Positions 4,255 through 57,795 of a DNA stretch of 64,000 nt are shown in pieces. Source of the DNA: Phytohabitans maris (GTDB taxonomy: Bacteria > Actinomycetota > Actinomycetes > Mycobacteriales > Micromonosporaceae); the NCBI RefSeq assembly GCF_031085175.1, contig NZ_JAVHUY010000004.1:1-64000 (forward strand), given 5' to 3'. The position numbers were made by a program, and so were the translations under genes. Under the pieces are notes generated by a model. The model was not told the DNA's origin, ran no database searches, and saw only the letters and a list, made by a program, of their open reading frames with translations. How positions within the stretch are numbered: the stretch's first letter is position 1; each line of letters begins with the position of its first letter.

Positions 4255-5451
4255 GTGGGCGGGGCGCTGGAGGGCCTGCTCGTCGTCGACCTGTCCCGGA
4301 TCCTGGCCGGACCGTACTGCACCCAGATGCTCGGCGACCACGGCGCCGAGGTGGTCAAGGTCGAGCCGCCGGAGGGCGACGGCACCCGGGAGTGGGCGGA
4401 GTCGTACGGCGACGGCGTGAGCGCCTACTACGCGGGCCTCAACCGCAACAAGCGCCACGTCACCGTCGACCTCTCCACCGCGGCCGGCCGCACGCTGGTG
4501 TTGCGGATGCTGGAGAACGCCGACGTCCTGGTGGAGAACTTCAAAACCGGCACGATGGAACGCTGGGGCATCGGCGCCGAGACGCTCCTGGCCCGGTTTC
4601 CGCGCCTGGTCTACTGCCGGATCAGCGCCTTCGGGGCCGACGGACCGATGGGCGGGCTCCCCGGCTACGACGCGGTCATCCAGGCGTACTCCGGCATCAT
4701 GCACATGAACGGCGAGCCGGGGAGCCGACCCCTGCGGATACCGATGCCGATCACCGACCTCACGACCGGCATGCTGGCGTTCAGCGGCGTCCTGCTGGCG
4801 CTCCAGGAACGCACGCGCTCGGGACGCGGTCAGCTCGTCGACCTCAGCCTGCTCGACGGCGCGCTCAGCCTCCTGCACCCGGCCGCGGCCAACTACTTCC
4901 GCACCGGCGAACGTCCGGAACGGCTCGGCAGCGCGCATCCGAACATCGCGCCCTGCGACACGTTCACCTCGCCGATGGGGGAGATCTACGTGGCGGCGGG
5001 CACCGACCGGCAGTTCGCGATCCTCTGCGAGTATCTCGGCGCGCCCGAGGTCGCGCGGGACGAACGGTTTCGCACCAACGCCGCCCGGCTGGCGCACCGG
5101 GCGGAGCTCACCGCGATCCTCGCCGACCTGGTGGCGCGGATGGAGTACGACGCCGACGCCGCCCGGACGATGATCGCCAAGGGGATACCGGCCAGCCTGG
5201 TTCGCCCTCTCGACGAGGTGCTCGGCGACCCCGAGGTGCACCGGCGCCGGATGGTCCAGACCGTGGACGGCCGGCGGGTGCTCGGCATCCCGGTCAAGCT
5301 CGGCCGGACGCCCGGGACGATCCGCACGCCGCCCCGCCCGGCCGGCGCCGACACCCGGGACGTGCTGGCCCGCTTCGGCCTGGCGGCGCGGGAGATCGAG
5401 AGGCTGATCGCGGATGGCGTCGTGACGCAGCACCGGCCCAGCCGGGGGTGA
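4255..5451 (+). CDS. CaiB/BaiF CoA-transferase (single domain)
   Basis: A 398-residue family III CoA-transferase of normal length. It starts at GTG 4255, one base after the DUF35 stop. The N-terminus reads LLVVDLSRILAGPYCTQ, then LGDHGAEVVKVEPP, both typical of the nucleotide-binding part. The catalytic Asp is intact in GRGQLVDLSLLDG (about residue 199). It is the last gene of the tight upstream operon (1-5451). It most likely transfers CoA between an acid intermediate and another acyl-CoA, and contrasts with the two double-domain paralogues in this window. Confidence 0.9.
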   Translation: MGGALEGLLVVDLSRILAGPYCTQMLGDHGAEVVKVEPPEGDGTREWAESYGDGVSAYYAGLNRNKRHVTVDLSTAAGRTLVLRMLENADVLVENFKTGTMERWGIGAETLLARFPRLVYCRISAFGADGPMGGLPGYDAVIQAYSGIMHMNGEPGSRPLRIPMPITDLTTGMLAFSGVLLALQERTRSGRGQLVDLSLLDGALSLLHPAAANYFRTGERPERLGSAHPNIAPCDTFTSPMGEIYVAAGTDRQFAILCEYLGAPEVARDERFRTNAARLAHRAELTAILADLVARMEYDADAARTMIAKGIPASLVRPLDEVLGDPEVHRRRMVQTVDGRRVLGIPVKLGRTPGTIRTPPRPAGADTRDVLARFGLAAREIERLIADGVVTQHRPSRG

Positions 5452-5545: not shown

Positions 5546-7018
5546 GTGGGCATCGAGGTGACCCTCCCGCAGGGGACGTACCGCGGCCGCGCGAGCGACG
5601 GTGTCCTCAGCTTCAAGGGCGTGCCGTACGCGGCGGCGCCGGTCGGTGACCTGCGCTTCGCACCGCCGCAGCCGCCCCCGCCCGTCGCCGGCGTCGTCGA
5701 CGCGAGCCGGTACGGGCCGACGGTGTCCGGGCCGCCGCAGCGCTCGGCGGTCATGGCCGAGCTCGTGCCGGACCCGACGATCCCCGGCGAGAACGGCCTC
5801 AACCTCAGCGTCTGGACGCCGGACACCGGCGCGAGCCTGCCGGTGTTCGTCTGGATCCACGGCGGCGGCTTCGTCACCGGCACCGGCGCGGTGACCGCGT
5901 TCGACGGCAGCGCGTTCGCCCGCGACGGCGTGGTGGCCGTGGTGATCAACTACCGGCTGGCCGTCGAGGGGTTCCTCCAGATCGCCGGCACCGTCGCCAA
6001 CCGCGGCCTGCTCGACCAGGTCGCGGCGCTGAAGTGGGTCCGCGACAACATCGCCGCGTTCGGCGGCGACCCGGCCCGGGTGACGATCGCCGGCGAGTCG
6101 GCCGGCGGGATGAGCGTCCTGACGCTGCTGGCGACGCCCGGGGCGCGCGGGCTCTTCCACCGGGCGATCTCCCAGAGCGGCGACGGGCACCACGTGCACA
6201 CGCCGGACCAGGCCGCGCGGGTCACCGCCCAGCTCTGCGCCGACCTGGGCGTCGCGGAGAGCCCGGAGGCGCTCGGTGCCGTGCCCGGCGACCTGCTCCA
6301 CCGCACGCTCAACGAGGTCATCGGCGCCGTGCAGGCGGGCCGGGACCCGAAGTGGCGGGCGCTCAACCGGCTCGTCGTACAGCCGGTCGTCGACGGCGAC
6401 GTGCTGCCCCGGCACCCGGTCGAGGCGTACGCCGACGGAGCCGGTGCCGACGCCGCCCTGCTGGTCGGCACCAACGCCAACGAGTACGGCCTCTTCACGA
6501 TCCCTACCGGCCTCGCCGACGCCCTGGACGAGCCCATGCTCGAGGCCCTCGTCGGCCGGCTGGGCGTGGACCCACGCGAGATGATCGCCACCTACCGCGA
6601 CCTGATGCCCTCCGCCGACCACGCCGACCTGTTCATGGCGATCCAGAGCGACTGGTTCGCCGGCGTGCCGATCGTCCGGGCCGTCGAGGCGCGCGAGAAG
6701 GCCGGCGCCGCGTCGTACGCCTACGAGTTCGCGTGGGACCCGCCCACCTTCGGCGGCCGGCTGGGCGCCTGCCACACCCTGGAGGTGCCGTTCGTCTTCG
6801 ACACCCTCGCCGACCCGTGGGGAGCCCGGCTGCGCGGCGACGCCCCGCCGCAGCCGCTCGCCGACGAGATGCACGGCGCCTGGGTGGCCTTCGTGTCCGG
6901 CACGGTCGACTGGCCCGCGTACGGGCGCGACCGGCTGGTCCAGCGGTTCGACATCGAAAGCACGGTCGTCCGGGACCCGTACCCGGGGCGGCACGGTGCG
7001 TGGGACGGCATCATCTGA
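5546..7018 (+). CDS. Type B carboxylesterase
   Basis: A 490-residue alpha/beta-hydrolase of the carboxylesterase type B family. The oxyanion-hole motif HGGG is at residues 105-108 and the nucleophile elbow GESAGG has Ser185. The conserved N-E-Y-G-L-F and G-A-C-H-T-L-E-V-P-F segments supply the later acid/histidine region. GTG 5546 is preferred because GGAG ends 5 bp upstream. In-frame starts exist at 5489 (TTG) and 5513/5516 (ATG), but they add residues atypical of the family. No signal peptide is visible, so it is probably cytosolic. Its place between the CoA-transferase operon and the Baeyer-Villiger monooxygenase suggests hydrolysis of an ester or lactone made by that enzyme. Confidence 0.9.
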   Translation: MGIEVTLPQGTYRGRASDGVLSFKGVPYAAAPVGDLRFAPPQPPPPVAGVVDASRYGPTVSGPPQRSAVMAELVPDPTIPGENGLNLSVWTPDTGASLPVFVWIHGGGFVTGTGAVTAFDGSAFARDGVVAVVINYRLAVEGFLQIAGTVANRGLLDQVAALKWVRDNIAAFGGDPARVTIAGESAGGMSVLTLLATPGARGLFHRAISQSGDGHHVHTPDQAARVTAQLCADLGVAESPEALGAVPGDLLHRTLNEVIGAVQAGRDPKWRALNRLVVQPVVDGDVLPRHPVEAYADGAGADAALLVGTNANEYGLFTIPTGLADALDEPMLEALVGRLGVDPREMIATYRDLMPSADHADLFMAIQSDWFAGVPIVRAVEAREKAGAASYAYEFAWDPPTFGGRLGACHTLEVPFVFDTLADPWGARLRGDAPPQPLADEMHGAWVAFVSGTVDWPAYGRDRLVQRFDIESTVVRDPYPGRHGAWDGII

Positions 7019-7601: not shown

Positions 7602-9182
7602 TCAGCCGAAGACGAAGCCGGTGTAGCCCGCCTCGACCGCCTCCGCGCACCGGGCGCGGTACTGCGGGATGCCGCCGGCGTACAGCTGGTACACCCGGGG
7701 CTTGCCCGGCACGTTCGAGCCGAACGCCCACGAGGTCGCGTCCTCCAGGACCGTGCCGCGCACCGTCGATTCCACGTGCGCCAGCCACGCTTCCTCGGCC
7801 GCCGGGGTGGTTTCCACGTACCGGTGGCCGTGGTCCGCCATGTGGCGCAGGCAGTCCATGACCCAGTCCACCTGGATCTCGGTGGCGCGCGGGATGTTGC
7901 CGGTGGTGCTCTGCGGCCCGCCGACGAAGAACAGGTTGGGGAACCCGGCACTCTGCAGCCCCAGATGCGTACGCGGGCCGGCCTCCCAGTGGCGGTCGAG
8001 GCGGACCCCGTCCCGCCCGCGGATGTCGATGCGCCGGATCGCCCCGGTGACGGCGTCGAATCCGGTGGCGAGGACGGCGACGTCGATCTCGTAGTGCCGG
8101 GCCGCGGTCTGGATGCCCGCCGGCGTGAACCGCAGGATCGGCTCCTCGGCCAGCGACACCAGCGACACGTGCTCCTGCGCGAACACTTCGTAGAAGCCGT
8201 CCTCCAGCGGCGGCCGCTTCATCCCGAACGTGTGGTCGGTCGGGATGAGCCGCTCCGCCACCTCCGGATCCTTGACCCGTTCCCGGATCTTGCCGCGCAG
8301 GAAGTCGGTGACCGCGGCGTTGGCCGCCCGGTCGGTGGTGATGTCCCGGTAGTTCGCCAGGACCATCGTCAGGCCCGGAGCGTCGTACAGCCGCTGGAAC
8401 CGCTCGCGGCGCTCCTCCTCGCCGACCTCCAGCGCCGAGACCGAGAGCGGCCGGTGCACGAACCCGCCCGGCGTCTCCTGGCACGTGCGGTGGATGGTCC
8501 GCGCCGTGCGGCGGATCTCCCGCATCCGCTCCGGCGTGATCGGCCGGTTGTTGATGGGCGTGCACCAGTTCGCGGTCCGCTGGAACACGACCAGCTCAGC
8601 GGCCTCGGCCGCGATGTGCGGGATCACCTGTACGCCGCTGGAGCCGGTGCCGATCACCGCGACCCGCTTGCCGCGCAGGTCCACCGGTTCGCGCGGCCAG
8701 CGGGCGGTGTGGTGCCAGACGCCGGCGAAGCCGGCCAGCCCGGGGATCGCCGGCACGTACGGCTCCGACAGCGGCCCCACGGCGGTGACGAGGAACCGCG
8801 CCCGCAGCCGCTCGCCGTTCTCGACGGTCACCGTCCAGGCGGCGGCCGCGTCGTCGTACACCGCGGCGCTGACCCGGGCGCCGAGGCGGATGTCGCGGCG
8901 CAGGTCGAACCGGTCGACGACGTGGTTGAGGTAGCGCTCGGTCTCGGGCTGGCCGGCGAACTCCTCGCTCCAGCTCCACTCGTCGAGCAGCTCGCGGGAG
9001 AAGAAGTAGCCGTACGTGTAGCTCTCCGAGTCGAAGCGGGCACCCGGGTACCGGTTCCAGAACCAGGTGCCGCCGACGCCGTCGCCGGCCTCGCAGAGCT
9101 GGACGGAGAGGCCCGCCTGCCGCAGCCGGTAGAGCTGGTAGATACCGCTGATGCCCGCGCCGACCACGACGGCGTCCAACAT
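7602..9182 (-). CDS. Baeyer-Villiger flavin monooxygenase
   Basis: A 526-residue FAD/NADPH class B monooxygenase. The first Rossmann motif GAGISG is at residues 8-13, followed by GVGGTWFWNRYPGARFD, the usual FAD-contact stretch. The Baeyer-Villiger fingerprint FxGxxxHxxxWP is matched exactly by FAGVWHHTARWP (residues 152-163). The NADPH-binding GTGSSG follows at about 178-183. The family inserts oxygen next to a ketone to form an ester or lactone. ATG 9182 has a GAGGGAG Shine-Dalgarno sequence. It is divergent from the aldehyde dehydrogenase. Together with the esterase at 5546 and the dehydrogenase it could form a ketone to ester to acid route; the natural ketone is unknown. Confidence 0.92.
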   Translation of the reverse strand: MLDAVVVGAGISGIYQLYRLRQAGLSVQLCEAGDGVGGTWFWNRYPGARFDSESYTYGYFFSRELLDEWSWSEEFAGQPETERYLNHVVDRFDLRRDIRLGARVSAAVYDDAAAAWTVTVENGERLRARFLVTAVGPLSEPYVPAIPGLAGFAGVWHHTARWPREPVDLRGKRVAVIGTGSSGVQVIPHIAAEAAELVVFQRTANWCTPINNRPITPERMREIRRTARTIHRTCQETPGGFVHRPLSVSALEVGEEERRERFQRLYDAPGLTMVLANYRDITTDRAANAAVTDFLRGKIRERVKDPEVAERLIPTDHTFGMKRPPLEDGFYEVFAQEHVSLVSLAEEPILRFTPAGIQTAARHYEIDVAVLATGFDAVTGAIRRIDIRGRDGVRLDRHWEAGPRTHLGLQSAGFPNLFFVGGPQSTTGNIPRATEIQVDWVMDCLRHMADHGHRYVETTPAAEEAWLAHVESTVRGTVLEDATSWAFGSNVPGKPRVYQLYAGGIPQYRARCAEAVEAGYTGFVFG

Positions 9183-12163: not shown

Positions 12164-13840
12164 CTAGACGGTGTCGGTGAGGAGCCGGTCGAAGTCCAGC
12201 GCGGCCGCGACGTGGCGTTTGATGATCTTTCCGCTGGGCGTGCGGGGGATGGGGATCGGTGAGATCGCCAGTTTTGCCGGCACCTTGAACGCCGCGAGCC
12301 GCTCGGCGGCGTAGGCGCGCAGCGACGCCGCGTCGGTCGTGCTGCCGGTCCGCAGCCGGACGATGGCGCCGAGCTCCTCGCCGAGCGTCGGGTGGGGGAG
12401 CCCGAAGACGACCGCTTCGACGACGTCGGGATGGGTGGCCAGGCAGGCCTCGACCTCGGCGCAGTTGATGTTTTCGCCGCCGCGGATGACCACGTCCTTG
12501 AGCCGCCCGACGAGGTAGAGGTAGCCGTCGGCGTCCAGCCGGCCCAGGTCGCCGGTGCGGAACCAGCCGTCGAGGAAGTTGTCCTCGCTGGCCGTCCGGT
12601 AGTAGCCGGCCACCACCTGCGGTCCGCGCAGCGCCACCTCGCCCTCCGCGCCGGCCGGCACGGCGTGTCCGGTGCCGTCCTCGATGCGTACCTCGACGGT
12701 GGGCAGCGGCCGGCCGACGCTGTCCGGGTGGGCCACGAAGTCGGCGCCGGAGATCGCGAAGACCCCGGACGTGGTCTCGGTCAGGCCGTAGCCGGTGCGC
12801 GGGCTCACCCGCCCGCCGAAGATCTCGTGGATCTCCTGGATGAGCGCCTTCGGCGCCGGCGCGCCACCCATGCCGAGGCTGCGCAGGCTCGACAGGTCAC
12901 GCTCCGACGTCGCGGCCGCGGCCAGGAACGTCTGCACGACGAACGGCGGGCCGGACATCTCGCCGACCCGCTCCGCCTCGACCAGCCGCAGCGCCTCGGG
13001 CGCGTCCCACTTGTACATCAGCACGGTGCGGTGGCCGGAGTACGCGTTGGAGTAGAGGTTGTTGATGCCGGCGATGTGGAAGAAGGGGAACGTCAGCAGC
13101 TTCACCGACGGCGCGGGCGGCAGCGGCTTCCCGCCCGGGCGGTCCGGCGGCGACACGGCGCGGATCAGCTTGTTGAGCAGCGAGGCGGCGTGGTTGAGGT
13201 GGGTGCCGGGGGCGCCCTTGGGGCGGCCGGTCGTGCCCGAGGTGTAGAGGATGGTCGCGACGTCGTCCGGGTCGACGTCGCAGGCCGGCGGCGTGTCCAG
13301 GGGGTGGTCGAGGTCGAGCAGGTCGGTGTAGTCGAGGGGTGCCTCGGTGCAGCGCACCCCGACGAGCGCGCCGACCCCGTCGACACCGCGCAGCTGCTCG
13401 ACCCGTTCCCGGTCGGCGAAGAGCGCCTTCGGCGCCGTCTCGCGGATCAGGTCGGTCATCTCGGCCGCCTTGAGCCAGGCGTTCAGCGGCACCGCGACCG
13501 CCCCGAGGAGCTGGGCCGCCCAGAAGGTGAAGGCGAACTCCGGGTAGTTGCGCATGGCGATGGCGACCCGGTCGCCCTTGACGACCCCGAGCTTGTCGCG
13601 GAGCCGGTGTGCCAGCGTGACGACGATCGACCACTGGTCGGCGTACGTGTACCGGTCGTCGCGGTAGACGATCGCCTCGCGGTCTGCGTGGCGGCGGGTC
13701 GCGAGGAACGCCTCGCGCAGCGTCCGCGGGTCGCGGTCGAACACCTCGAGCGCCACACCGCCGACGGAACGCCGCACGAGCGGGAAGCCGCCGCCGGGCG
13801 CGGTGAGCAGCGCGAGTCGCTCCCGGTCGTCCATCGTCAC
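12164..13840 (-). CDS. AMP-dependent acyl-CoA synthetase / ligase
   Basis: A 558-residue adenylate-forming enzyme. The P-loop reads ILYTSGTTGRPKG, the adenine motif GYGLTETTSG, the hinge region GWFRTGDLGRLDADGYLYLVGR, and the C-terminal catalytic Lys lies in PRTPSGKIIKR. The middle motif after the P-loop (THLNHAAS) is typical of medium/long-chain FadD-like ligases. GTG 13840 has GGAGAGG 8 bp upstream and is preferred; ATG 13834 is an alternative. It lies 41 bp downstream of the corrinoid/Fe-S gene and is probably cotranscribed, so it likely activates an acid handled by that enzyme. Confidence 0.92.
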   Translation of the reverse strand: MTMDDRERLALLTAPGGGFPLVRRSVGGVALEVFDRDPRTLREAFLATRRHADREAIVYRDDRYTYADQWSIVVTLAHRLRDKLGVVKGDRVAIAMRNYPEFAFTFWAAQLLGAVAVPLNAWLKAAEMTDLIRETAPKALFADRERVEQLRGVDGVGALVGVRCTEAPLDYTDLLDLDHPLDTPPACDVDPDDVATILYTSGTTGRPKGAPGTHLNHAASLLNKLIRAVSPPDRPGGKPLPPAPSVKLLTFPFFHIAGINNLYSNAYSGHRTVLMYKWDAPEALRLVEAERVGEMSGPPFVVQTFLAAAATSERDLSSLRSLGMGGAPAPKALIQEIHEIFGGRVSPRTGYGLTETTSGVFAISGADFVAHPDSVGRPLPTVEVRIEDGTGHAVPAGAEGEVALRGPQVVAGYYRTASEDNFLDGWFRTGDLGRLDADGYLYLVGRLKDVVIRGGENINCAEVEACLATHPDVVEAVVFGLPHPTLGEELGAIVRLRTGSTTDAASLRAYAAERLAAFKVPAKLAISPIPIPRTPSGKIIKRHVAAALDFDRLLTDTV

Positions 13841-13881: not shown

Positions 13882-15210
13882 TCAGTAGCCGAGTGCGCCG
13901 AGCCGTTCGTCCGAGGAAAGGTCCTTCTTGGTGTCCGAGGGAGGCTCGGTGCGGTTGGGGTCGAAGTCGAAGCCGGGCGTCTCGATCAGCTCCGGGCCGA
14001 TCCTCGGCTTCTCGCCGGGCCCGTAGTGCTTGCCGTCGACGGGCCAGTCGTACCCTTCGAGGTCGTCGGTGCCCTTGCCGAGGATGCGCCCGGTCGCCTC
14101 GAACTCGGCCAGTACGGCGGGCAGCCCGAACCGCTGGACCGGGCAGACCTTCATGCACACCGAGCAGCCGGCGGTCTTGCCCATGACGGGCAGGCACCGC
14201 TTGGTGTTCAGCTTCGCTTTCATCACCCCGCGGCTGTCCTTGCGGGCGGCGGGGATGGCCCCCGGCGGGCAGCGCCGCACGCAGATCTGGCAGTTGTCGC
14301 AGATGCCCTCGATCCCGTAGTCGACCGGCTCGTCGTGCACGAACGGCGCGTCGGTCGACATCACGTGCAGCCGGGCCCGCGAGCCGGCGTGCGGCGAGAG
14401 GAGCTGGCCGTTGAGGCCGAGCTGGCCGAGGCCGGCCTGCACCGCGTACGGGATGTTCATCGACTCGCCGACGAACCCCTCGGGGCGCGCCTTGTAGCCT
14501 TGCGCGTGGATCCAGGTGGCCAGCAGGCGCATGCGGTCCTCGAGCTCGGCGTACGTGGTGAGCGCCGCCTTCTCCGCGCGGATGCTCGGCGCCGTCTGGG
14601 TGGAGTCGTAGTTCTGTTCCAGGATCCCGACGATGATCGTGTCGCCGACGTTGAGCCCGTAGTACTCGGCGAAGTTGTACTTCTTGTCGTAGTGGGTGAC
14701 GCCGATCGCGCTCAGCCCGAGCCGGGCCGCCTCGGCGCGCAGGGCCGCGGTCAGCGCGGCGGGGTCCGCGGCGGCCTCCTTCTTCGCCGGCTTGGCGGTG
14801 CGGGCGAAGAAGGCCCGCCGGCGGGCGGCCCGCTGCACGCGGGGCGACGTCGACAGCAGCGAGACCCACATCCGGCCGGTCGGGCTGTGCACGCCGCGCA
14901 TCTCGGGGTTGAGGCGGATGAAGTCGTGCAGCGGCGCCTCCTCCATCGCCTTCTGCTGCGCGACCGGGTCCAGCTTTATCCCCGGTACGGTCCTGAGCTC
15001 CTCGGGCGGCGGGCCGACCGGCTGGGTCCAGGGCCGCGCCGGCGACCTGCGCCGGCGGTGCAGCGCGACGGGAAGCGTCGGGATCCACCACATCTTGGGC
15101 CGGTACGGCAGGGTGTGGCGCATCAGCGGGTACAGCAGGTCGGAAAGGCGGTGTCCGGTGTGGTGCGCCCACCGTTGGATCGCGTTACGCGCGTACCTGT
15201 TACCTGGCAT
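13882..15210 (-). CDS. Cytosolic reductive-dehalogenase/QueG-like corrinoid and 2x[4Fe-4S] protein
   Basis: A 442-residue protein. The segment around 259-285 (AGLGQLGLNGQLLSPHAG, then RARLHVMSTD) matches the corrinoid-binding region shared by reductive dehalogenases and epoxyqueuosine reductase (QueG). Two ferredoxin-type cluster motifs follow: Cys304-x2-Cys307-x2-Cys310-x3-Cys314-Pro and Cys339-x9-Cys349-x2-Cys352-x3-Cys356-Pro. Upstream, TTYAELEDRMRLLATWIHAQGYKA resembles the helix before the corrinoid site in RdhA. No twin-arginine signal is visible, so it is not a classical exported RdhA. It lacks the usual QueG layout and has a long basic N-terminus. ATG 15210 has GCGGAGGT 8 bp upstream. 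It probably catalyses a corrinoid-dependent reduction in this pathway; the substrate is unknown. Confidence 0.8.
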   Translation of the reverse strand: MPGNRYARNAIQRWAHHTGHRLSDLLYPLMRHTLPYRPKMWWIPTLPVALHRRRRSPARPWTQPVGPPPEELRTVPGIKLDPVAQQKAMEEAPLHDFIRLNPEMRGVHSPTGRMWVSLLSTSPRVQRAARRRAFFARTAKPAKKEAAADPAALTAALRAEAARLGLSAIGVTHYDKKYNFAEYYGLNVGDTIIVGILEQNYDSTQTAPSIRAEKAALTTYAELEDRMRLLATWIHAQGYKARPEGFVGESMNIPYAVQAGLGQLGLNGQLLSPHAGSRARLHVMSTDAPFVHDEPVDYGIEGICDNCQICVRRCPPGAIPAARKDSRGVMKAKLNTKRCLPVMGKTAGCSVCMKVCPVQRFGLPAVLAEFEATGRILGKGTDDLEGYDWPVDGKHYGPGEKPRIGPELIETPGFDFDPNRTEPPSDTKKDLSSDERLGALGY

Positions 15211-15295: not shown

Positions 15296-15763
15296 ATGAG
15301 AGCCGCCTCCCACATCGCCATCGGCGTCACGGACCTCGAACGCTCACTGGTGTTCTACCGCGATCTGCTCGGCCTGACCGTCATCCGCGACGCGGTGAAC
15401 GAACCCCCCTCCGACACGGGCCTCTACCACCCCGTCCCGCCGACGACCCGCCGCCGCGAGGTCTTCCTCCGCTTCGGCGATCCAGGCGACGTGGAGAGCG
15501 TCTTCATCGCCCTCTCGCAGCCCGACGCGCCGGACGACAGCCGTCCGATCGGGCTCGGGCAGGTCGGCATCCACCACGTGGGCTTCTGGGCCGACGACGT
15601 CGCCGCGCGCGCGGAGAGGCTGCGGGCCGCCGGTGTCGAGGTGGTCTCGGTGACCGACACCACCGGCGTCGGGTACGGCGAGGACGCGCGGACGAGGATG
15701 CGGGCGATGTTCGTCAAGGACCCGGACGGCACGATCCTGCAGTTCGACGAGCGGCTCGGCTGA
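15296..15763 (+). CDS. VOC-superfamily (glyoxalase fold) protein
   Basis: A 155-residue protein with two beta-alpha-beta-beta-beta modules. Candidate metal ligands are His6 (SHIAIGV), one of the His pair in GIHHVGFW, and a C-terminal ILQFDE, where Gln replaces the more usual Glu. Family members include methylmalonyl-CoA epimerase-like, dioxygenase and lyase enzymes. It heads a three-gene unit with an NRAMP metal importer (10 bp gap) and a crotonase, so a divalent-metal-dependent step is likely. The exact reaction is not predictable. Confidence 0.8.
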   Translation: MRAASHIAIGVTDLERSLVFYRDLLGLTVIRDAVNEPPSDTGLYHPVPPTTRRREVFLRFGDPGDVESVFIALSQPDAPDDSRPIGLGQVGIHHVGFWADDVAARAERLRAAGVEVVSVTDTTGVGYGEDARTRMRAMFVKDPDGTILQFDERLG

Positions 15764-15773
15764 GCCGTCGCGG

Positions 15774-17018
15774 ATGGCGACGGCACAGGGGCGGATGGCG
15801 GTCCGGCGCCCGCCGGCGGCCCGGTGGCTGGCGCTGCTCGGCCCCGCGTTCGTCGCCGCGATGGCGTACGTGGACCCCGGCAACGTCGCCACCAACGTGA
15901 CCGCCGGCGCCCGGTTCGGCTACGCCCTGGTCTGGGTCGTGGTGCTGGCCAACGCCATGGCGGTGCTGGTGCAGTACCTGTCGGCGAAGCTCGGCATCGT
16001 CACCGAGCGCTCCCTCGCCGAGCACCTCGGCCGGCGGTTGCCGGCGCGGATCCGGGTCGGCTACTGGCTGCAGGCCGAGGCGGTGGCCATCGCCACCGAC
16101 CTGGCCGAGGTGGTGGGCGGCGCGATCGCGCTGCGCATGCTGTTCGACCTGCCGCTGGTCGTGGGCGCGGTCATCACCGCGGCGGTCGCGATGGCGGTGC
16201 TCAGGATCGGCGACATGTTTGGGCAGAGCGCCCTCGAACGCCTCGTCATCGGCTTCCTCGCGCTGATCGCCGTCGGCTTCGCGGCCGGCCTGGTCGCCGC
16301 CCCGCCCGAGGCCGGGGCGCTCGCGGCCGGCCTGGTTCCCGGCTTCGACGGCCCGGAGAGCGTGCTGCTGGCGTCGGGCATCATCGGGGCGACCGTCATG
16401 CCACACGTGATCTACCTACACTCCGGCCTGACCGCCCGGCGCCTCGACGCCCGCGGGGAGGGGCGGACCGTACGGCAGTTGCTGGCCGTGACCCGTACGG
16501 ACGTCGTCGCCGCGCTGGTCGTCGCCGGGCTCCTCAACCTCTGCCTGCTGCTCGTCGCGGCGGCCAGCCTGACCGGACACCCCGGCACCGACAAGCTGGA
16601 GGGCGTACACGCGGTGGTCACCTCCGAACTCGGGGCCGGCATCGCGCTGCTGTTCGCGGTCGGGCTCCTCAGCTCGGGCCTGGGATCGACATCGGTCGGC
16701 AGTGCCGCCGGAGCGGAGATCATGAACGGGCTGCTGGGTATCCGCGTCCCCGTGCTGGTCCGACGGCTGGTGACGCTGGCGCCGGCTCTGCTCCTCTTGG
16801 GCGCGGGCGCCGATCCGACCCGGAGCCTCGTGCTCTCGCAGGTCGCCCTCTCGCTCGGCATCCCGTTCGCGCTCGTCCCGCTGGTCGTCCTGACCGCGAG
16901 CCGCTCGGTGATGGGCGAGCACCGCAACAGCCCGGCGACGACGGTGGCGGCTTCCGTCGCGGCCGCACTGGTGATCGGGCTCAACGCCGTCCTGCTCTGG
17001 CTCACGTTCACGGGGTGA
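15774..17018 (+). CDS. NRAMP-family divalent metal (Mn/Fe) transporter
   Basis: A 414-residue polytopic membrane protein with the NRAMP signatures: DPGN at residues 34-37 in TM1 and MPH at 209-211 in TM6, both direct metal-coordinating segments. About eleven hydrophobic segments are visible, matching the family. It sits 10 bp after the VOC gene and its stop is next to the crotonase start, so the three genes are almost certainly one operon. Placement of a metal importer inside a catabolic operon suggests supply of Mn2+ or Fe2+ to neighbouring enzymes. A general housekeeping role is the alternative. Confidence 0.92.
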   Translation: MATAQGRMAVRRPPAARWLALLGPAFVAAMAYVDPGNVATNVTAGARFGYALVWVVVLANAMAVLVQYLSAKLGIVTERSLAEHLGRRLPARIRVGYWLQAEAVAIATDLAEVVGGAIALRMLFDLPLVVGAVITAAVAMAVLRIGDMFGQSALERLVIGFLALIAVGFAAGLVAAPPEAGALAAGLVPGFDGPESVLLASGIIGATVMPHVIYLHSGLTARRLDARGEGRTVRQLLAVTRTDVVAALVVAGLLNLCLLLVAAASLTGHPGTDKLEGVHAVVTSELGAGIALLFAVGLLSSGLGSTSVGSAAGAEIMNGLLGIRVPVLVRRLVTLAPALLLLGAGADPTRSLVLSQVALSLGIPFALVPLVVLTASRSVMGEHRNSPATTVAASVAAALVIGLNAVLLWLTFTG

Positions 17019-17023
17019 CGACG

Positions 17024-17794
17024 ATGGAAGCTGACACGCGCTCGCGGGTGCTGGTCGAGCGGCAGGGGCCGGTACTCCTGGTCGTCCTCGACCGCCCGGA
17101 GAAGCGGAACGCGGTCGACGAGGCGATGACCCGCGGCCTCGACGCCGCCTTCGCCCGCCTCGAAAGCGAGCCTGCCCTGCGGGTCGGGATCCTCGCCGCC
17201 AACGGCCCGGCGTTCTGCGCGGGCAGTGACCTGCTCGGCGGGCCCGGCGACCCGACCCCGGACGGCGGCCCCTACGGCCTGGCCCGGCGGGTACGGCGCA
17301 AGCCGCTCGTCGCGGCGGTCGACGGCCCGGCGCTCGGCGGCGGCTTCGAGCTCGTCCTGGCCTGCGATCTCGTCGTAGCCTCCACCCGTGCGACGTTCTC
17401 CCTGCCCGAGGCGCGGCGCGGCCGCGTGGCCAACGCGGGCGGGCTGTTTCGCGCGCCCCACCGCCTGCCGCGCAACCTCGCGCTGGAGCTGCTGCTCACC
17501 GGCGGCCAGCTCGACGCGACCCGGGCACACCGGGTCGGGCTCGTGAACCGGCTGACCGGCCCCGGCGGCGCCCTCGCCGGCGCGGTTGACCTCGCCATCG
17601 AGATCTGCCGCTCCGCGCCGAGCGCGGTCGCGCAGGTGCTCGGCGCGCGCCGGGCGGTCGAGGCCGCGGCCGAGGAGGCCGGATGGCGGGCCACCGGGAC
17701 GGCGGTCGCCGACCTGCGGGGTTCCGCCGACTGGGTGGAGGGCACCGCGGCGTTCCGGGAGAAGCGGCCGGCCCGATGGGAGCCGGGCGAATGA
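17024..17794 (+). CDS. Enoyl-CoA hydratase/isomerase family (crotonase)
   Basis: A 256-residue crotonase. The oxyanion-hole segments are FCAGSDL and GPALGGGFELVLACD. The LPEARRG and LALELLLTGG segments each carry a Glu at or near the two catalytic positions of hydratases. Starts overlap the NRAMP stop: GTG 17015 and ATG 17024 are in frame, and ATG is preferred because GGGGTGA lies 5 bp upstream. It is expected to hydrate, isomerise or cleave an unsaturated acyl-CoA. Confidence 0.9.
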   Translation: MEADTRSRVLVERQGPVLLVVLDRPEKRNAVDEAMTRGLDAAFARLESEPALRVGILAANGPAFCAGSDLLGGPGDPTPDGGPYGLARRVRRKPLVAAVDGPALGGGFELVLACDLVVASTRATFSLPEARRGRVANAGGLFRAPHRLPRNLALELLLTGGQLDATRAHRVGLVNRLTGPGGALAGAVDLAIEICRSAPSAVAQVLGARRAVEAAAEEAGWRATGTAVADLRGSADWVEGTAAFREKRPARWEPGE

Positions 17795-17857: not shown

Positions 17858-18814
17858 TCAGAGTTCGAGGACCAGGCGGGGGCCGACCGACCGCGAGACG
17901 CAGATCATCATGGTCTCGTTGGCGGCCCGTTCCTCGTCCGACAGCACGGAGTCGCGGTGGTCCGGGATGCCTTCGACGACCACGGTCTCGCAGGTCCCGC
18001 AGGTCCCCTCCTGGCAGGACGAGTACACCGGCGCCCCGGCCTCTTCCAGGACGTCGAGGATGGACCGGTCGGGCGGTACGACCACGGTCGTGCCCGTGAC
18101 CGTCAGCTCCACCTCGAACGACCCGGCGCGGGCGGGCGCGTCCACCGGGCGGGGCGCGAAGCGCTCGACGTGCAGCGAGCCGGCCGGCCAGGAGGCGCAG
18201 CGCGCCTCCACGGCGCGTAGCAGCGGTTCGGGCCCGCAGCAGTAGACGCTGGTGCCGGCGCGGGGCGTGCCGATCGCGGCGTCGAGGTCCAGCAGCCCGA
18301 ACTCGTCCTGGGGATGGATCGTGACCCGGTCGCCGTGTGCGGCGGCGAGGTCGCCGGCGAAGGCCATCGTGTCCCGCGACCGGCCTCCGTAGTAGAGGTG
18401 CCAGTCGACGCCGCCCGCGCCCGCGGCGGCGACCATGGGTACCAGTGGCGTGATGCCGACACCGCCGGCGATGAACACGACGGCCCGCCCCGGTGCGAAG
18501 GCGAAGTGGTTGCGCGGGCCGCGGACCGCGACGGAGTCGCCCTCGGCCAGCCGGTCGTGGACGAAGGCGGAGCCGCCGCGCCCGTCGGGCTCGCGGAGCA
18601 CCGCCACCTGCCAGCGTGCCCGGTCGGCCGGATCGCCGCAGAGCGAGTACTGGCGGACCAGGTCCGGCCCCAACAGCAGGTCGACGTGCGCCCCCGGCGC
18701 CCACGCCGGAAGCGCGGAGCCGTCGGCGGCGACCAGGTCGAGGAGGACCACGTCGCGGGCCACCGCGGTGCGCCGGGCCACCAGGAGGGTGCACTCGAAC
18801 TCGGGCTCGGGCAA
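17858..18814 (-). CDS. Phthalate-dioxygenase-reductase-type flavin/2Fe-2S oxidoreductase
   Basis: A 318-residue reductase with domain order flavin (RQYSLCG), NAD(P) (FIAGGVGITPLVPM) and C-terminal plant-type [2Fe-2S] ferredoxin. The iron-sulfur ligands read CQEGTCGTC with a fourth Cys in MMICVSRS. This is the VanB/PDR architecture. The start is TTG 18814: AGGAGGAA lies 4-5 bp upstream and the length then fits the family. The nearby ATG at about 18833 is out of frame. It is divergent from the alcohol dehydrogenase/P450 operon and probably passes electrons to the P450 (20167) or, less directly, to the Rieske protein at 25931. Confidence 0.92.
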   Translation of the reverse strand: MPEPEFECTLLVARRTAVARDVVLLDLVAADGSALPAWAPGAHVDLLLGPDLVRQYSLCGDPADRARWQVAVLREPDGRGGSAFVHDRLAEGDSVAVRGPRNHFAFAPGRAVVFIAGGVGITPLVPMVAAAGAGGVDWHLYYGGRSRDTMAFAGDLAAAHGDRVTIHPQDEFGLLDLDAAIGTPRAGTSVYCCGPEPLLRAVEARCASWPAGSLHVERFAPRPVDAPARAGSFEVELTVTGTTVVVPPDRSILDVLEEAGAPVYSSCQEGTCGTCETVVVEGIPDHRDSVLSDEERAANETMMICVSRSVGPRLVLEL

Positions 18815-19041: not shown

Positions 19042-20142
19042 GTGAAGACCAGGTCGGCCACGCTGTGGCACGTCGGGCAACGCTGGGCGGTCGAGGAGCT
19101 CGACCTGGCCGAGCCCGGACCGGGCCAGGTGCTGGTCAGGATCCGGGCGACCGGCCTGTGCCACTCCGACGACCACGCGGTCACCGGCGACAGCCGCCCG
19201 CCCCTGCCGCTCGTCGGAGGCCACGAGGGCGCGGGGGTCGTCGAGGCGATCGGGCCCGGGGTCACCAGGGCGAGCGTCGGCGACCACGTCGTGCTGGCGT
19301 TCAACTCACCCTGCGGGCACTGCCGGTACTGCGCCGGCGGCCTCTCCAACCTCTGCGCGATCGCCCGGCGCCGGGTCGGTGGCGAGCCGGCGGCGAGCCC
19401 GTTCAGCAGGGCGGGGGAGACCGTCTGGGCGATGGGCGGGCTCGGCACGTTCAGCGAGCGGACGGTCGTACCCGAGGACAGCGTGATCGTCATCGACAAG
19501 GACGTGCCGTTCGCGGTCGCGGCGCTGCTGGGCTGCGCCGTCACGACCGGCTGGGGCGCCGCCGTGTACCTCGCGGACGTGCGCCGGGGCGAGACCGTGG
19601 TCGTCGTCGGCTGCGGTGGCGTCGGCGTCAACTCGCTGCAGGGGGCCCGGAACGCGGGAGCGGACATCATCGTCGCGGTCGACCCCAGCGAGTTCAAACG
19701 CGAGCAGGCCGTGCGGTTCGGCGCCACCCACGCGGTCGCCGACCTGGCCCGCGCGCGGGAGGTGCTGGCCGAGCTGACCGGCGGCCACATGGCCGACGTC
19801 GCGATCCTCTCGGTCGGGGTCGCCGACAGCGACATCCTCGGCGACATGATGTCGACGCTCGGCCTCAACGGCCGCGGCATCATCACCGCCGTGTCGCCCG
19901 CCGCGGCCACCACGGTCAACCTCTCGCTGGTCGACTTCACCCTGTCGCAGCAGACCATCCGGGGCAACGTGTACGGCGGCACGAACATGCACCGGGACAT
20001 TCCGCTGCTGCTCGGGCTCTACCGGCGCGGCAAGCTCCAGCTCGACGAGCTCATCTCCCGGACGTACCCACTGGACGAGATCAACCAGGGATACGCCGAC
20101 ATGCACGCCGGCCGGAACCTGCGCGGGGTCGTCCTGCCGTGA
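19042..20142 (+). CDS. Zinc-dependent alcohol dehydrogenase, NDMA-dependent type
   Basis: A 366-residue MDR-superfamily dehydrogenase. The catalytic zinc residues include Cys40 (GLCHSDDH) and His61 (GGHEG). Structural-zinc cysteines are 91, 94, 97 and 105 (CGHCRYC ... LC). The Rossmann motif is GCGGVG. Overall wording (VKTRSATLWHVG, PVELD-like hinge, NVYGGTNMHRDIP) resembles the NDMA-dependent alcohol dehydrogenases of actinomycetes. Those hold NAD tightly and are linked to the cofactor mycofactocin. GTG 19042 is the start. It lies 24 bp before the P450 and should oxidise the P450-generated alcohol. Confidence 0.88.
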   Translation: MKTRSATLWHVGQRWAVEELDLAEPGPGQVLVRIRATGLCHSDDHAVTGDSRPPLPLVGGHEGAGVVEAIGPGVTRASVGDHVVLAFNSPCGHCRYCAGGLSNLCAIARRRVGGEPAASPFSRAGETVWAMGGLGTFSERTVVPEDSVIVIDKDVPFAVAALLGCAVTTGWGAAVYLADVRRGETVVVVGCGGVGVNSLQGARNAGADIIVAVDPSEFKREQAVRFGATHAVADLARAREVLAELTGGHMADVAILSVGVADSDILGDMMSTLGLNGRGIITAVSPAAATTVNLSLVDFTLSQQTIRGNVYGGTNMHRDIPLLLGLYRRGKLQLDELISRTYPLDEINQGYADMHAGRNLRGVVLP

Positions 20143-24788: not shown

Positions 24789-24850
24789 GTTGATCAGGGA
24801 GTTCGTGGGCGGGTCGGCCGGCGCGCCACCGCACGAGGTCCCTGATCAAC
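24789..24850. terminator. Long hairpin between convergent dctM and amidohydrolase genes
   Basis: GTTGATCAGGGA (24789-24800) is the exact reverse complement of 24839-24850. A second 5-bp helix inside (TCGTG at 24803-24807 with CACGA at 24832-24836) extends the stem. The right arm overlaps the last codons of the amidohydrolase gene. It probably serves as a bidirectional terminator. Confidence 0.65.
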
Positions 24851-25934
24851 CGCGACGGGGGAGGCGGTACCAGTGGCGGGCGTTCTCGGACATGGTCTTG
24901 GCGCGCATGGTCTCCGGCATCGCCGCCAGCAGCCGGGTCAGGTCGTCGTCGTGGGCGTGGGGGTAGTCGGTCGCGAACATCAGCGCTTCTTCGGTGCGCA
25001 GCCAGCCGAGCGACCTTTCCAGCGTGCTCGCCGGCCCGGCCTCGGTCGGGGCGGTGGAGAAGCGGAAGTGGCGGCGCACGACGTCGAAGGGCGGCTCGTC
25101 GAGCCACGGCACCTCGCGGCGCAGCCCCTTCCAGTCCTTGTTCATGCGCCAGCCCCAGGCGGGCAGCCAGAGGAACCCGCCTTCGAGGACCGCGACCCGC
25201 AGGTCGGGTACGGCCTGGAAGAGCCCCTCGGCGACCATGCTGGTGATCTGGCTGCCGAACGCCTGCCACTCGGCGGCGTACTCCTCGATGAAGTACGACG
25301 GGTAGCCGGTGGTCGACGGTACGCCGTCGTTGGTGCCGCCGTAGTGCAGGCCGGCCACCAGGTCGTGTTCGGCCATGGCCGCGAAGACCGGGAAGAACAT
25401 GCGGCGGCCCCAGAGGGCGTCGGTCCGCACCGGGAGCAGGACCTGGACGAACCCGGGGTGGGAGCCGACGCGCCGGATCTCCTTGACCATCGACTCCGGG
25501 TCGCGGGCCGGCAGGACGAGCGACGCGCGGAGCCGGGAGTCCTTCTCCAGCCAGTGTTCGACGAGCCAGTCGTTGACCGCGCTGGCCATCGCGTTGTGCC
25601 AGTCGGGTTGCCGGATGCTGTCGACGCCGTAGTAGCAGTTGACGATCGCGTGGTCGACGCCCCAGGGGTCGAGGACGTGCGCCCGGAGCAGGTCCACATC
25701 GGACGACGGCACGCGGCCGTCGGCCGGGCGCCACTCGGGGCGGCAGGCGCGGGGCGAGTTCGGCGGGTAGTGGACGGTGGGCCCCTGGGGCGCCTTCCAG
25801 TTTCGCTCGGTGCACCAGTCGACCCACTGCCGGGCGAGGTAGGGGAAGAGCGCCTCGGCGGAGGGGACGTTGGCGTGCACGTCGACGTCGATGACGGGCC
25901 CGGTCCAGGCCGGTGCCGCGGTGGTGGTCGTCAT
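24846..25934 (-). CDS. Amidohydrolase family 2 protein
   Basis: A 362-residue metal-dependent TIM-barrel enzyme of the amidohydrolase 2/ACMSD group. The N-terminal motif is VIDVDVHANVP, with D-x-H in place of the classical H-x-H. Later ligand segments are LHYGG and FATDYPHAHDDD. ATG 25934 is preferred because upstream sequence belongs to the Rieske gene. Members hydrolyse C-C or C-N bonds or decarboxylate. The start overlaps the end of the Rieske gene by 4 bp, so the two are coupled. The substrate is unknown. Confidence 0.88.
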   Translation of the reverse strand: MTTTTAAPAWTGPVIDVDVHANVPSAEALFPYLARQWVDWCTERNWKAPQGPTVHYPPNSPRACRPEWRPADGRVPSSDVDLLRAHVLDPWGVDHAIVNCYYGVDSIRQPDWHNAMASAVNDWLVEHWLEKDSRLRASLVLPARDPESMVKEIRRVGSHPGFVQVLLPVRTDALWGRRMFFPVFAAMAEHDLVAGLHYGGTNDGVPSTTGYPSYFIEEYAAEWQAFGSQITSMVAEGLFQAVPDLRVAVLEGGFLWLPAWGWRMNKDWKGLRREVPWLDEPPFDVVRRHFRFSTAPTEAGPASTLERSLGWLRTEEALMFATDYPHAHDDDLTRLLAAMPETMRAKTMSENARHWYRLPRRG

Positions 25935-26491
25935 GCGGTGGGCTGCCTCTCGGTGCGGTCGGACCGGGGTGCCGGGCGGGGCGGCCGGAGGTCGACGACC
26001 AGGTAGTCGTCCTCCACGCAGACGGCAACGGTCTCGGCGGTGTACGGGCCGGGGACCCGCTCGCCGGCCCGGCCGGAAGCCGCGGTCGCCTGGGCGTACT
26101 GCGCGGGTGTCAGGTCCAGCGAGCCGCGGCGCAGTTCCTCGGCGACGAGCGCGCCGTTCTCCACCTCGACCGTGTACGGGCGGCCCCGGGTGCCCGCCGG
26201 GTCGAAGTACGACTGTCCGGTGGTGACGTCGAACTCCCAGCCGTGCCAGGGGCAGGCGAGCAGCGGGCGGCCGGTGTCGTACGTGTACTGGCCGGGCATC
26301 GTCGATGTCACGAGCGGCAGGAACCGGCCGCGGCACAGGTCGGCGCCGCGGTGCGGGCAGCTGTTGAGCAGCCCGTAGTAGCGACCGTCCACATTGAACA
26401 CCGCGATCGACCGCCCGTTGACCTCGACGGCCATCTTCTCTCCGGGGGCCAGGTCGGACGCCCGCCCCACGACGAACCTCCGACCGCTCAC
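25931..26491 (-). CDS. Stand-alone Rieske [2Fe-2S] protein
   Basis: A 186-residue protein with a Rieske domain in the first 110 residues. The cluster ligands are Cys45-x-His47 (CPHRG) and Cys80-x2-His83 (CPWHGW). A C-terminal extension of about 60 residues ends AVCVEDDYLVVDLRPPRP. It lacks the catalytic domain of a Rieske oxygenase, so it is a ferredoxin-like carrier or a regulatory subunit. GTG 26491 overlaps the upstream TGA (GTGA), and its own stop overlaps the next ATG, locking it between two amidohydrolases. Whether it serves them or an oxygenase elsewhere is unclear. Confidence 0.88.
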   Translation of the reverse strand: MSGRRFVVGRASDLAPGEKMAVEVNGRSIAVFNVDGRYYGLLNSCPHRGADLCRGRFLPLVTSTMPGQYTYDTGRPLLACPWHGWEFDVTTGQSYFDPAGTRGRPYTVEVENGALVAEELRRGSLDLTPAQYAQATAASGRAGERVPGPYTAETVAVCVEDDYLVVDLRPPRPAPRSDRTERQPTA

Positions 26492-27672
26492 AGCGGGTAG
26501 CCCTGGCCGGGCAGGAGCGGGATGCCGTACAGCTCGCTGGCGACGCCGCCGAGCACCGCGGCGCGCCGCCGCGGGGAGAGGTTTCTCGGCAGGGCGGCCG
26601 GCTCGTCGAAGTCCCAATGTGGATAGTCGGAGGAGTACATCAGCTTCTCGCCCATGCCGGACTCGTAGAAGGCCTCGAAGACCTCGTCGAGGTGCCGGTT
26701 CTCCTCCGGCTCCTCCATCGGCTGGGTGGTGAAGTAGAAGTTGTCCCGCAGGTACTGCGACGGGCGCTTGCGCAGGTCCGGTACCTCGGCGCCGAGCACC
26801 CGCTGGGCCGCGTCGAGGCGCCAGGCCAGCGGCAGCGCCCAGGACCAGCCCAGCTCGACCAGGACGATCTTCAAGCTGGGGAACCGGTCGAGCGTCCCCT
26901 CGAAGACGTAGCTCGCCACGAGCGGGAAGTTGAACGCCGCGTAGTCCGTGTGCTCTTCGAAGTAGTAGTTGGGGCCGCCGGACGGGGTGACCCGGTTGGC
27001 CGTCATCACGTGGAAGGTGACCGGGATGTCGTAGTGCTCGCAGGCCTCGTAGATCGGCCAGTAGCTGGGGTGGCCCGGCGGGCGCAGGTTGTCGGGGGCC
27101 AGCATGATCTGTTTGAAGCGGCCGTTGTACTCGCCCATCTCCTCCATGCAGAACTCGATCTCCCGCACCGCGAGCTCGGGCAGCTCGTACGGCAGGTTGA
27201 TCGAGGCGTACCAGCGCGGGTCCTGGGCCAGCCAGTTGTCGCGGCGGTGCTCGTTGAGGGCGCGGCAGTAGGCGGCCGCGAAACCGGCCGGCTGGCCCTT
27301 CATCCCCGCCGAGCTGAACGCGCCGAGGTCGTTGAGGAGCGCGCCGCTGATCTCGTACCGGTCCAGCAGCTGCTCCGCCGCGAAGGCCGGGTCGCTGCCG
27401 GGCGGGCCGCCGCTCGGCGTCTCGGTGTCCCAGCGCTGCCCGAACTCGCGCGGGCGCGGGCGGTCGCCGCCGGCGAAGCCGCCCCGGGCGACGCCCACCT
27501 CCAGCGCGTGGCGGCGCCACCTCTCGGGCAGGTACGACAGCACGCCGGCGCCCCGCTGGTGGTGCTCGCGCAGCTTCAGCGGGTGTACGTCGCAGTCGAT
27601 GATGCCGAGTTTCGCCGGCTCCCCGGCCTGGTCGTTCGGGCGCGCGTCGAGGTCTGGAAGTGTCGTGGTCAT
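26488..27672 (-). CDS. Amidohydrolase family 2 protein
   Basis: A 394-residue member of the same family as the 24846 product, with the N-terminal motif IIDCDVHPLK, again D-x-H. The middle segment is VTFHVMTANR, and the C-terminal ligand region is MYSSDYPHWDFDEP. It is the first gene of a three-gene operon (amidohydrolase, Rieske, amidohydrolase) with 4-bp overlaps. The two amidohydrolases are clearly diverged rather than recent duplicates. The upstream region (27673-27784) is shared with the SnoaL-like gene and contains a copy of the shared operator motif. Confidence 0.88.
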   Translation of the reverse strand: MTTTLPDLDARPNDQAGEPAKLGIIDCDVHPLKLREHHQRGAGVLSYLPERWRRHALEVGVARGGFAGGDRPRPREFGQRWDTETPSGGPPGSDPAFAAEQLLDRYEISGALLNDLGAFSSAGMKGQPAGFAAAYCRALNEHRRDNWLAQDPRWYASINLPYELPELAVREIEFCMEEMGEYNGRFKQIMLAPDNLRPPGHPSYWPIYEACEHYDIPVTFHVMTANRVTPSGGPNYYFEEHTDYAAFNFPLVASYVFEGTLDRFPSLKIVLVELGWSWALPLAWRLDAAQRVLGAEVPDLRKRPSQYLRDNFYFTTQPMEEPEENRHLDEVFEAFYESGMGEKLMYSSDYPHWDFDEPAALPRNLSPRRRAAVLGGVASELYGIPLLPGQGYPL

Positions 27673-57773: not shown

Positions 57774-57795
57774 CCGAAAGCCCGGAGGGGAAAAC

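Follow-up and report, generated by a model that had tools for sequence, protein, structure and literature searches.

What kind of enzyme is encoded by an open reading frame that resembles both reductive dehalogenases (RdhA) and epoxyqueuosine reductases (QueG), and that lies among genes of CoA-thioester catabolism? According to an excerpt of PMC10463259, these two groups together make up the class III cobalamin enzymes, and RdhA is divided into four subfamilies by domain make-up. The window, the whole stretch of DNA that was analyzed, comprises 64,000 nucleotides of Phytohabitans maris (positions 1 to 64,000 of contig NZ_JAVHUY010000004.1). Its initial annotation proposed a cytosolic corrinoid reductase that would belong to neither group.

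The features of the locus are collected in Table 1. The RdhA-like protein carries the corrinoid-type stretch AGLGQLGLNGQLLSPHAG (residues 259–276 of 442) and two ferredoxin motifs, C304-C307-C310-C314-P and C339...C349-C352-C356-P, the eight cysteines of which are invariant across all 20 aligned rows of its family (defined below). Two NCBIfam models matched the protein, that for reductive dehalogenases (RDH, TIGR02486) with 99.6 bits (3e-28), below its cut-off of 160.35, and that for QueG (TIGR00276) with 56.1 bits (3e-15), against an equivalog cut-off of 200. The Pfam search matched the 4Fe-4S part and returned neither a dehalogenase nor a QueG domain. Among solved structures, the sequence matched NpRdhA (4ras, 8.4e-21), PceA (4uqu, 5.2e-20) and QueG (5d08, 4.9e-8). 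Judged by these scores, the likeness to the RDH and QueG models and to the structures is far beyond chance. No RR-x-hydrophobic (TAT) motif occurs in the first 70 residues and a simple hydropathy scan revealed no hydrophobic or membrane segment (maximum KD19 of 1.16). The protein looks cytosolic, and the initial description of a corrinoid-type stretch with two ferredoxin motifs and no TAT signal is borne out by the sequence. An RR-x-hydrophobic string was seen near the N-terminus in four of the 20 family rows, all of them other than the window protein, and in three of the four RdhA rows scanned. Comparison with the P. suffuscus copy gave a dN/dS of 0.147, and the gene is therefore maintained. 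A search of the whole window for cobalamin riboswitches with Rfam, at the gathering threshold, gave 0 matches.

Table 1. Features of the window that bear on the RdhA-like gene
Feature	Coordinates	Strand	Remarks
Type III CoA-transferase (CaiB)	4255..5451	+	In 5/5 islands
Carboxylesterase	5546..7018	+	Orthologs in Streptomyces and Dactylosporangium islands
Flavin monooxygenase, Baeyer-Villiger-like	7602..9182	-	Best match pentalenolactone D synthase, below cut-off
Acyl-CoA ligase	12164..13834	-	Best NCBIfam match steroid-24-oyl-CoA synthetase, 432 bits (cut-off 750)
RdhA-like corrinoid/2x[4Fe-4S] reductase (putative)	13882..15210	-	442 aa, ATG start; Y220 and R280 as in RdhA
VOC/glyoxalase-fold protein, divergent	15296..15763	+	Orthologs in Streptomyces and Dactylosporangium islands
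NRAMP metal transporter	15795..17018	+	Ortholog in Streptomyces island (69%), also in P. suffuscus
Crotonase/enoyl-CoA hydratase family	17048..17794	+	
Stand-alone reductase of phthalate-dioxygenase-reductase (PDR) type, NAD-binding and 2Fe-2S	17858..18814	-	In 5/5 islands
NDMA-dependent alcohol dehydrogenase	19042..20142	+	TIGR03989, above cut-off
Cytochrome P450	20167..21384	+	CYP125-like, nearest CYP125 entry 1.2e-93; in 5/5 islands
Two PF04909 amidohydrolases flanking a Rieske protein	24846..27672	-	70-78% with Streptomyces island
Crotonase	28380..29237	+	82-83% identity with Streptomyces, Dactylosporangium and Nocardia islands
Second VOC protein	29393..29935	+	74-81% identity with Streptomyces, Dactylosporangium and Nocardia islands
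Long protein, type III CoA-transferase matches below cut-offs	29926..32154	-	Orthologs in Streptomyces (60%) and Nocardia (67%)

An AlphaFold2 model of the protein, built from a 19-row alignment, had a pLDDT of 82.9 and a pTM of 0.87. When this model was used as the query in Foldseek against the PDB, PceA ranked first (1.2e-15), with NpRdhA at 7.7e-15 and QueG at 2.2e-7; the TM-scores by query length were modest (about 0.46 to PceA and 0.51–0.57 to NpRdhA). The predicted fold is RdhA-like, with a corrinoid domain and then the two [4Fe-4S] motifs.

The residues that distinguish the two groups of class III enzymes were inspected next to this fold. The Tyr246-Arg305 motif of RdhA has been implicated in proton transfer, and the equivalent of Arg-305 is missing from QueG (excerpt of PMC4646009). 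In the portion of PMC5500849 used here, mutation of the Tyr246 equivalent inactivates NpRdhA, and the pocket lining of PceA includes Trp376 and Tyr246. In a structure-sequence match alignment, Y220 of the window protein aligned with Y246 of PceA and Y426 of NpRdhA, and R280 aligned with R305 of PceA and K488 of NpRdhA. We take the NpRdhA residues to be those named Tyr426, Lys488 and Arg552, their positions having been counted on the printed alignment. The proton-donor dyad of RdhA (Tyr and Arg/Lys) is thus present in the window protein. Y220 is a tyrosine in 18 of the 20 family rows (L049 and L050 are the exceptions), and its equivalent is found in six of nine QueG rows. The R280 position holds Arg throughout the family (20/20), Arg or Lys in all nine RdhA rows, and V, L, F or Y in all nine of QueG. 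R278 is conserved in 20/20 family rows, and the GLGQxGxNGQLL loop, in the corrinoid half of the protein, is also conserved in the family. The catalytic aspartate of QueG (St Asp-130) is D in nine of nine QueG rows; the 20 family rows have F, Y, V, H, T, S or L in its place. The position of M343 corresponds to Trp376 of PceA and, by manual count, to Arg552 of NpRdhA. Here the nine RdhA rows have W (3, respiratory-type), R (5, catabolic) or D (1), and the family has Met (7) or Val (13). Tyr382 of PceA falls in an alignment gap of the RdhA-like protein, again with positions counted by hand. Since the dyad is kept and Met or Val stands at the Trp376/Arg552 position, the family probably retains the proton-donor machinery in a pocket that differs from that of RdhA and is less aromatic. 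An R-G-V-x-K-x-K loop lies between the cluster motifs; its R327, K331 and K333 are found in 20/20 family rows and in 4/4 rows of a sister clade. R327 and K331 occur in no RdhA or QueG row, and K333 is matched by Lys in six of nine RdhA rows.

The tree (46 rows, 248 columns) placed the 20 family sequences, all from Actinomycetota, in one clade (98/95), joined at 95/90 to the sister clade of four actinobacterial rows (L104–L107). The nine RdhA rows, respiratory and catabolic, formed one clade (100/94) and the nine QueG rows another (100/99), with the family outside the latter. The branch uniting the family, the sister clade and RdhA had values of 94/88, just under the mark set by the program. 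In this tree the nine sampled RdhAs are the neighbors of the family plus its sister clade, and the window protein, which the initial annotation had set apart from QueG, does not cluster with it. Seven QueG rows were scored with TIGR00276, six at 213–327 bits, passing the cut-off of 200, and L017 below it at 188.9; of two RdhA rows scored with TIGR02486, L012 passed (297.5 bits) and L011 fell below 160.35 (132 bits). L044, an N-terminally short copy, was retained in the tree; the partial L006 was excluded from the alignments and the tree, and the phylum-search loci L014, L015, L022, L023, L025, L026, L028 and L030–L033 were left out of the tree.

The gene is sparsely distributed. It was found in two of six Phytohabitans genomes, the P. 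suffuscus copy (95%) being the closest named relative from a scan of genome contigs. In a sample of 396 genomes of the phylum, a match below 1e-60 was present in three, one of them the genome of the window itself; in the same 396, the RDH model scored above its cut-off in one and reached 1e-20 in eight. The contig scan relied on two peptide patterns, and its family count is a lower bound: 84 pattern matches led to 19 relatives, with at least 18 family members, all 18 from Actinomycetota, L053 (35% over 84 residues) having been excluded from the family. Nine of 72,556 plasmid records matched, none over 80% of the protein (the best was 31% over 40%), and no family member was among them. No publication on this clade was found among the open-access papers searched. 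P. suffuscus has a second family member (L043, 10001-11239, 51%) in another cluster, whose neighbors, by reading, are acyl-CoA dehydrogenase, crotonase, Rieske oxygenase and 2-oxoacid dehydrogenase genes. Two short superfamily relatives, L013 and L019, have Glu and Gly aligned at the first two Cys of the first [4Fe-4S] motif.

How the protein stands among the described systems follows from its domain make-up. It gave one domain match and has no vestigial second core, whereas five catabolic RdhAs each gave an extra N-terminal core match. No reductase is fused to it; the reductase is a separate gene (17858-18814). The TAT motif, which respiratory RdhA has together with a neighboring anchor gene, is missing, and the gene neighbors are a ligase and a VOC protein. 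Because it has no TAT motif, membrane segment, vestigial core or fused reductase, the protein falls outside all four RdhA subfamilies described. With PceA of Sulfurospirillum multivorans it has in common the corrinoid-domain fold, the two [4Fe-4S] motifs and the equivalents of Tyr246 and Arg305, but it differs in the absent TAT signal, in the replacement of Trp376 by Met/Val and in the gap at Tyr382. The catabolic BhbA, NpRdhA and JtRdhA are alike in the Tyr/Lys-Arg dyad and in an aerobic catabolic setting (as given in the excerpt of PMC10463259). Unlike these, the RdhA-like protein is a single core of 442 aa with no vestigial duplicate, in a separate clade; their reductase is fused, whereas a PDR-type reductase is a separate gene nearby, and where five catabolic RdhAs have an Arg in the pocket, the family has Met/Val. 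The class III cobalamin architecture is shared with QueG, as is the Tyr with six of its nine rows, but the family has Arg280 in addition to lacking the catalytic Asp, forms a clade of its own and resides, in the case of the window, in a genome with no queuosine pathway. The sister clade shares the Tyr, the Arg and the extra R-G-V-x-K-x-K loop, but is about 30% identical and has a different gene setting. Scores, missing Asp, tree and domain make-up thus all support the initial proposal of an enzyme distinct both from QueG and from the RdhA subfamilies described.

The gene setting was assessed by comparing the window proteins with the 60-kb stretches that surround the orthologs in Streptomyces shenzhenensis, Dactylosporangium sp. 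AC04546 and Nocardia miyunensis. Before 38.8 kb, 24 of the 33 called genes were matched at 42% or more in at least one of the three stretches (21 in Streptomyces, 14 in Dactylosporangium and 10 in Nocardia); after 38.8 kb, none of 23 did. Six genes occur in all five islands, P. suffuscus included: those for CaiB, the RdhA-like protein, the PDR-type reductase, the P450, a crotonase and a VOC protein. The five islands span four genera (Phytohabitans, Streptomyces, Dactylosporangium and Nocardia), and amount to about three independent lineages because the genes of Streptomyces and Dactylosporangium are closely related to each other. The CoA-type catabolic setting perceived initially is therefore upheld, the RdhA-like gene being one of six kept in a CoA/P450 island in five genomes, and the divergent unit of VOC, NRAMP and crotonase genes (from 15296, 15795 and 17048) is as described. 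Distant family matches, on which the substrate class rests, point to an alicyclic, terpenoid- or steroid-like acid as the substrate of the island, because a CYP125-like P450, a ligase resembling steroid-24-oyl-CoA synthetase, a Baeyer-Villiger-like monooxygenase, an esterase, an NDMA-type alcohol dehydrogenase and several CoA-transferases are encoded together. Cobalt, manganese or iron for the pathway might be provided by the NRAMP transporter. A TRAP transporter is present in the Phytohabitans islands (21523-24773; DctP by profile match, the rest by reading), where those of Streptomyces, Dactylosporangium and Nocardia share an apparent LIV-type ABC transporter (by reading). Outside the island, at 56934-60698, an apparent set for reductive pyrimidine/hydantoin degradation was noted by reading (nitrilase-type amidohydrolase, dihydropyrimidinase and semialdehyde dehydrogenase).

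The PDR-type reductase is 34–43% identical to the C-terminal module of five self-sufficient (catabolic) RdhAs. Its best solved relatives are P450-reductase fusions (6kbh and 6laa, presumably CYP116B), and each of 11 genomes searched has 1–10 reductases of this type. It may serve the P450. As proof of an electron donor to the RdhA-like protein, it is weakened by these P450-fusion relatives and by the abundance of paralogs.

A closer partnership was considered for the acyl-CoA ligase. The initial annotation placed it 41 bp downstream; the adjacency stands and the distance fits a GTG at 13840, but it is 47 bp from the ATG at 13834. The ligase did not prove to be a conserved partner. Among the five islands, its ortholog is adjacent to the RdhA-like gene in the two Phytohabitans only; it lies about 12 kb away in Streptomyces, and the 60-kb stretches of Dactylosporangium and Nocardia yielded no match to it. 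The P. suffuscus ortholog (L081-L082) matches in two reading frames and is either broken or a sequencing misread. With adjacency in only two of five islands, the ligase was rejected as an obligatory partner in the window clade. General enrichment of CoA genes around the distant family members was likewise discarded, as it was not significant: at least one of five probes was found at 4 of 11 loci and at 3 of 20 controls. Acyl-CoA dehydrogenase alone gave p=0.042 at the 11 loci, uncorrected for 12 probes. Near-duplicates (L037, L042, L046 and L052) were omitted from this test, leaving a non-redundant 14, and the far 11 also omit L035, L036 and L039.

The sister clade offers a different setting. 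All four of its loci (L104–L107; genomes G114, G148, G266 and G396) have an acyl-CoA ligase, at 67 bp in L104, 59 bp in L105, ~2.3 kb in L107 and ~4.2 kb in L106, and an OYE-type flavoprotein (PF00724), that of L104 with sub-cut-off similarity to BaiCD. Acyl-CoA dehydrogenase and crotonase were each found by probe at three of the four loci, molybdopterin oxidoreductases in three, URO-D-type (methyltransferase) proteins in three (two by scan, L105 by reading) and a corrinoid protein in one. Such a gene content resembles an anaerobic CoA pathway. Because the four loci have a common ancestry and the 20 control stretches came from other genomes, the p-values obtained for the sister clade are optimistic. 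By its ligase, OYE, acyl-CoA dehydrogenase and crotonase, the sister-clade setting, from four loci of common ancestry, suggests a tie between the wider branch and CoA-linked catabolism. The acyl-CoA ligases at all four loci are an unexpected argument for the initial interpretation.

The reading that we favor, with moderate confidence, is that of a cytosolic, single-core, RdhA-type class III cobalamin enzyme acting as a catabolic reductase in a conserved island. Six of its elements follow from the sequence: the cluster ligands, the Tyr/Arg dyad, the RdhA-like fold of the model, the phylogenetic place, the island membership and an N-terminus in which no export signal was found. By its position in the tree, the RdhA-like branch is actinobacterial and sister to the reductive dehalogenases sampled. 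The probable substrate of the island, a class that we infer, is a bulky alicyclic acid of terpenoid- or steroid-like type, or the CoA ester of such an acid. In the mechanism envisaged, electrons would pass from a putative donor, an NAD(P)H-dependent (flavin/2Fe-2S) reductase or a ferredoxin, to the two [4Fe-4S] clusters (Cys 304-314 and 339-356). The clusters would reduce base-off cob(II)alamin, the presumed cofactor, to cob(I)alamin. The cob(I) species would expel a leaving group, conceivably a halide or an activated oxygen function, and Tyr220, tuned by Arg280, would donate the proton. The genome contains the cobaltochelatase CobN, and corrinoid synthesis is therefore plausible.

Within the favored reading, the protein could be a true reductive dehalogenase whose substrate is a natural halogenated terpenoid or aromatic acid; once its Cl or Br is gone, the island could degrade the rest. 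BhbA acts in this manner on bromoxynil in Comamonas. The dyad common to all nine RdhA rows, the sister position to RdhA, the RdhA-like fold of the model and the stand-alone reductase, of the type fused in BhbA, in five of five islands are all consistent with this role, but the Met/Val at M343, where RdhA rows have Trp (3) or Arg (5), the absence of a vestigial core and of a TAT signal, the RDH score below the cut-off and the lack of any halogen-related gene recognized on a plain reading of the gene calls leave it a possible, though doubtful, assignment.

The other sub-case is a C-O bond reductase, with QueG-like chemistry on an RdhA scaffold. Its target would be an epoxide, an allylic or alpha-keto hydroxyl, or an ether, introduced into the acid or into its CoA thioester by the neighboring P450 or SDR. 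The P450 of all five islands could furnish such groups, the Nocardia island has the order RdhA-SDR-P450 with gaps of 4 and 11 bp, and the sister clade lies beside genes for acyl-CoA ligase, OYE and corrinoid-methyltransfer-type proteins, with no halogen gene noticed. The Asp that is D in nine of nine QueG rows is absent, however, and we know of no RdhA-type enzyme that cleaves C-O bonds; this sub-case seems rather unlikely to us. We also put forward, quite tentatively, a wider proposal: the family and its sister clade may form a fifth, non-respiratory RdhA-type branch that arose in Actinomycetota to serve CoA-linked catabolism. Its members would act on alicyclic acids or acyl-CoA thioesters and reductively remove a leaving group other than halogen, such as the oxygen of an epoxide, a hydroxyl or an ether.

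Improbable, in our judgment, is a role as an Fe-S protein free of corrinoid that transfers electrons to the P450 or the Rieske enzymes of the island or otherwise assists them. Redox enzymes are indeed its neighbors, and corrinoid binding is a prediction, but the corrinoid half is conserved (Y220 in 18/20 rows, R278 and R280 in 20/20, and the GLGQxGxNGQLL loop) and a P450 is near only one of the 11 distant family members.

QueG deserves mention since the RdhA-like protein is the sole QueG-like match in its genome, with a common cluster architecture; no protein of that genome scores above the QueG cut-off. Tgt (tRNA-guanine transglycosylase) gave 0 matches in this assembly (97.32% complete; control positive 14/14) and the QueA match was below its cut-off (125.7 against 267.45). 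An epoxyqueuosine reductase or a close relative acting on tRNA is accordingly rejected as highly improbable, given a score of 56 against 200 bits, the missing Asp, the absence of Tgt, the exclusion from the QueG clade and the presence of the gene in only two of six genomes of the genus. Clear clustering with functional QueG in a genome lacking another QueG would, by the initial annotation, have spoken against its proposal; no other QueG exists in the genome, but Tgt is absent too and clustering with QueG was not seen.

It is reasonable to regard the RdhA-like protein as a good candidate for an undescribed activity. What is new, as judged from domain make-up and tree, is a soluble RdhA-like branch outside the four described subfamilies. 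The occurrence of this soluble branch in culturable actinomycetes, together with a definable degradation island, makes it a tractable route to further chemistry of the scaffold, and would show either a new source of dehalogenases working in aerobes or a third class III chemistry.
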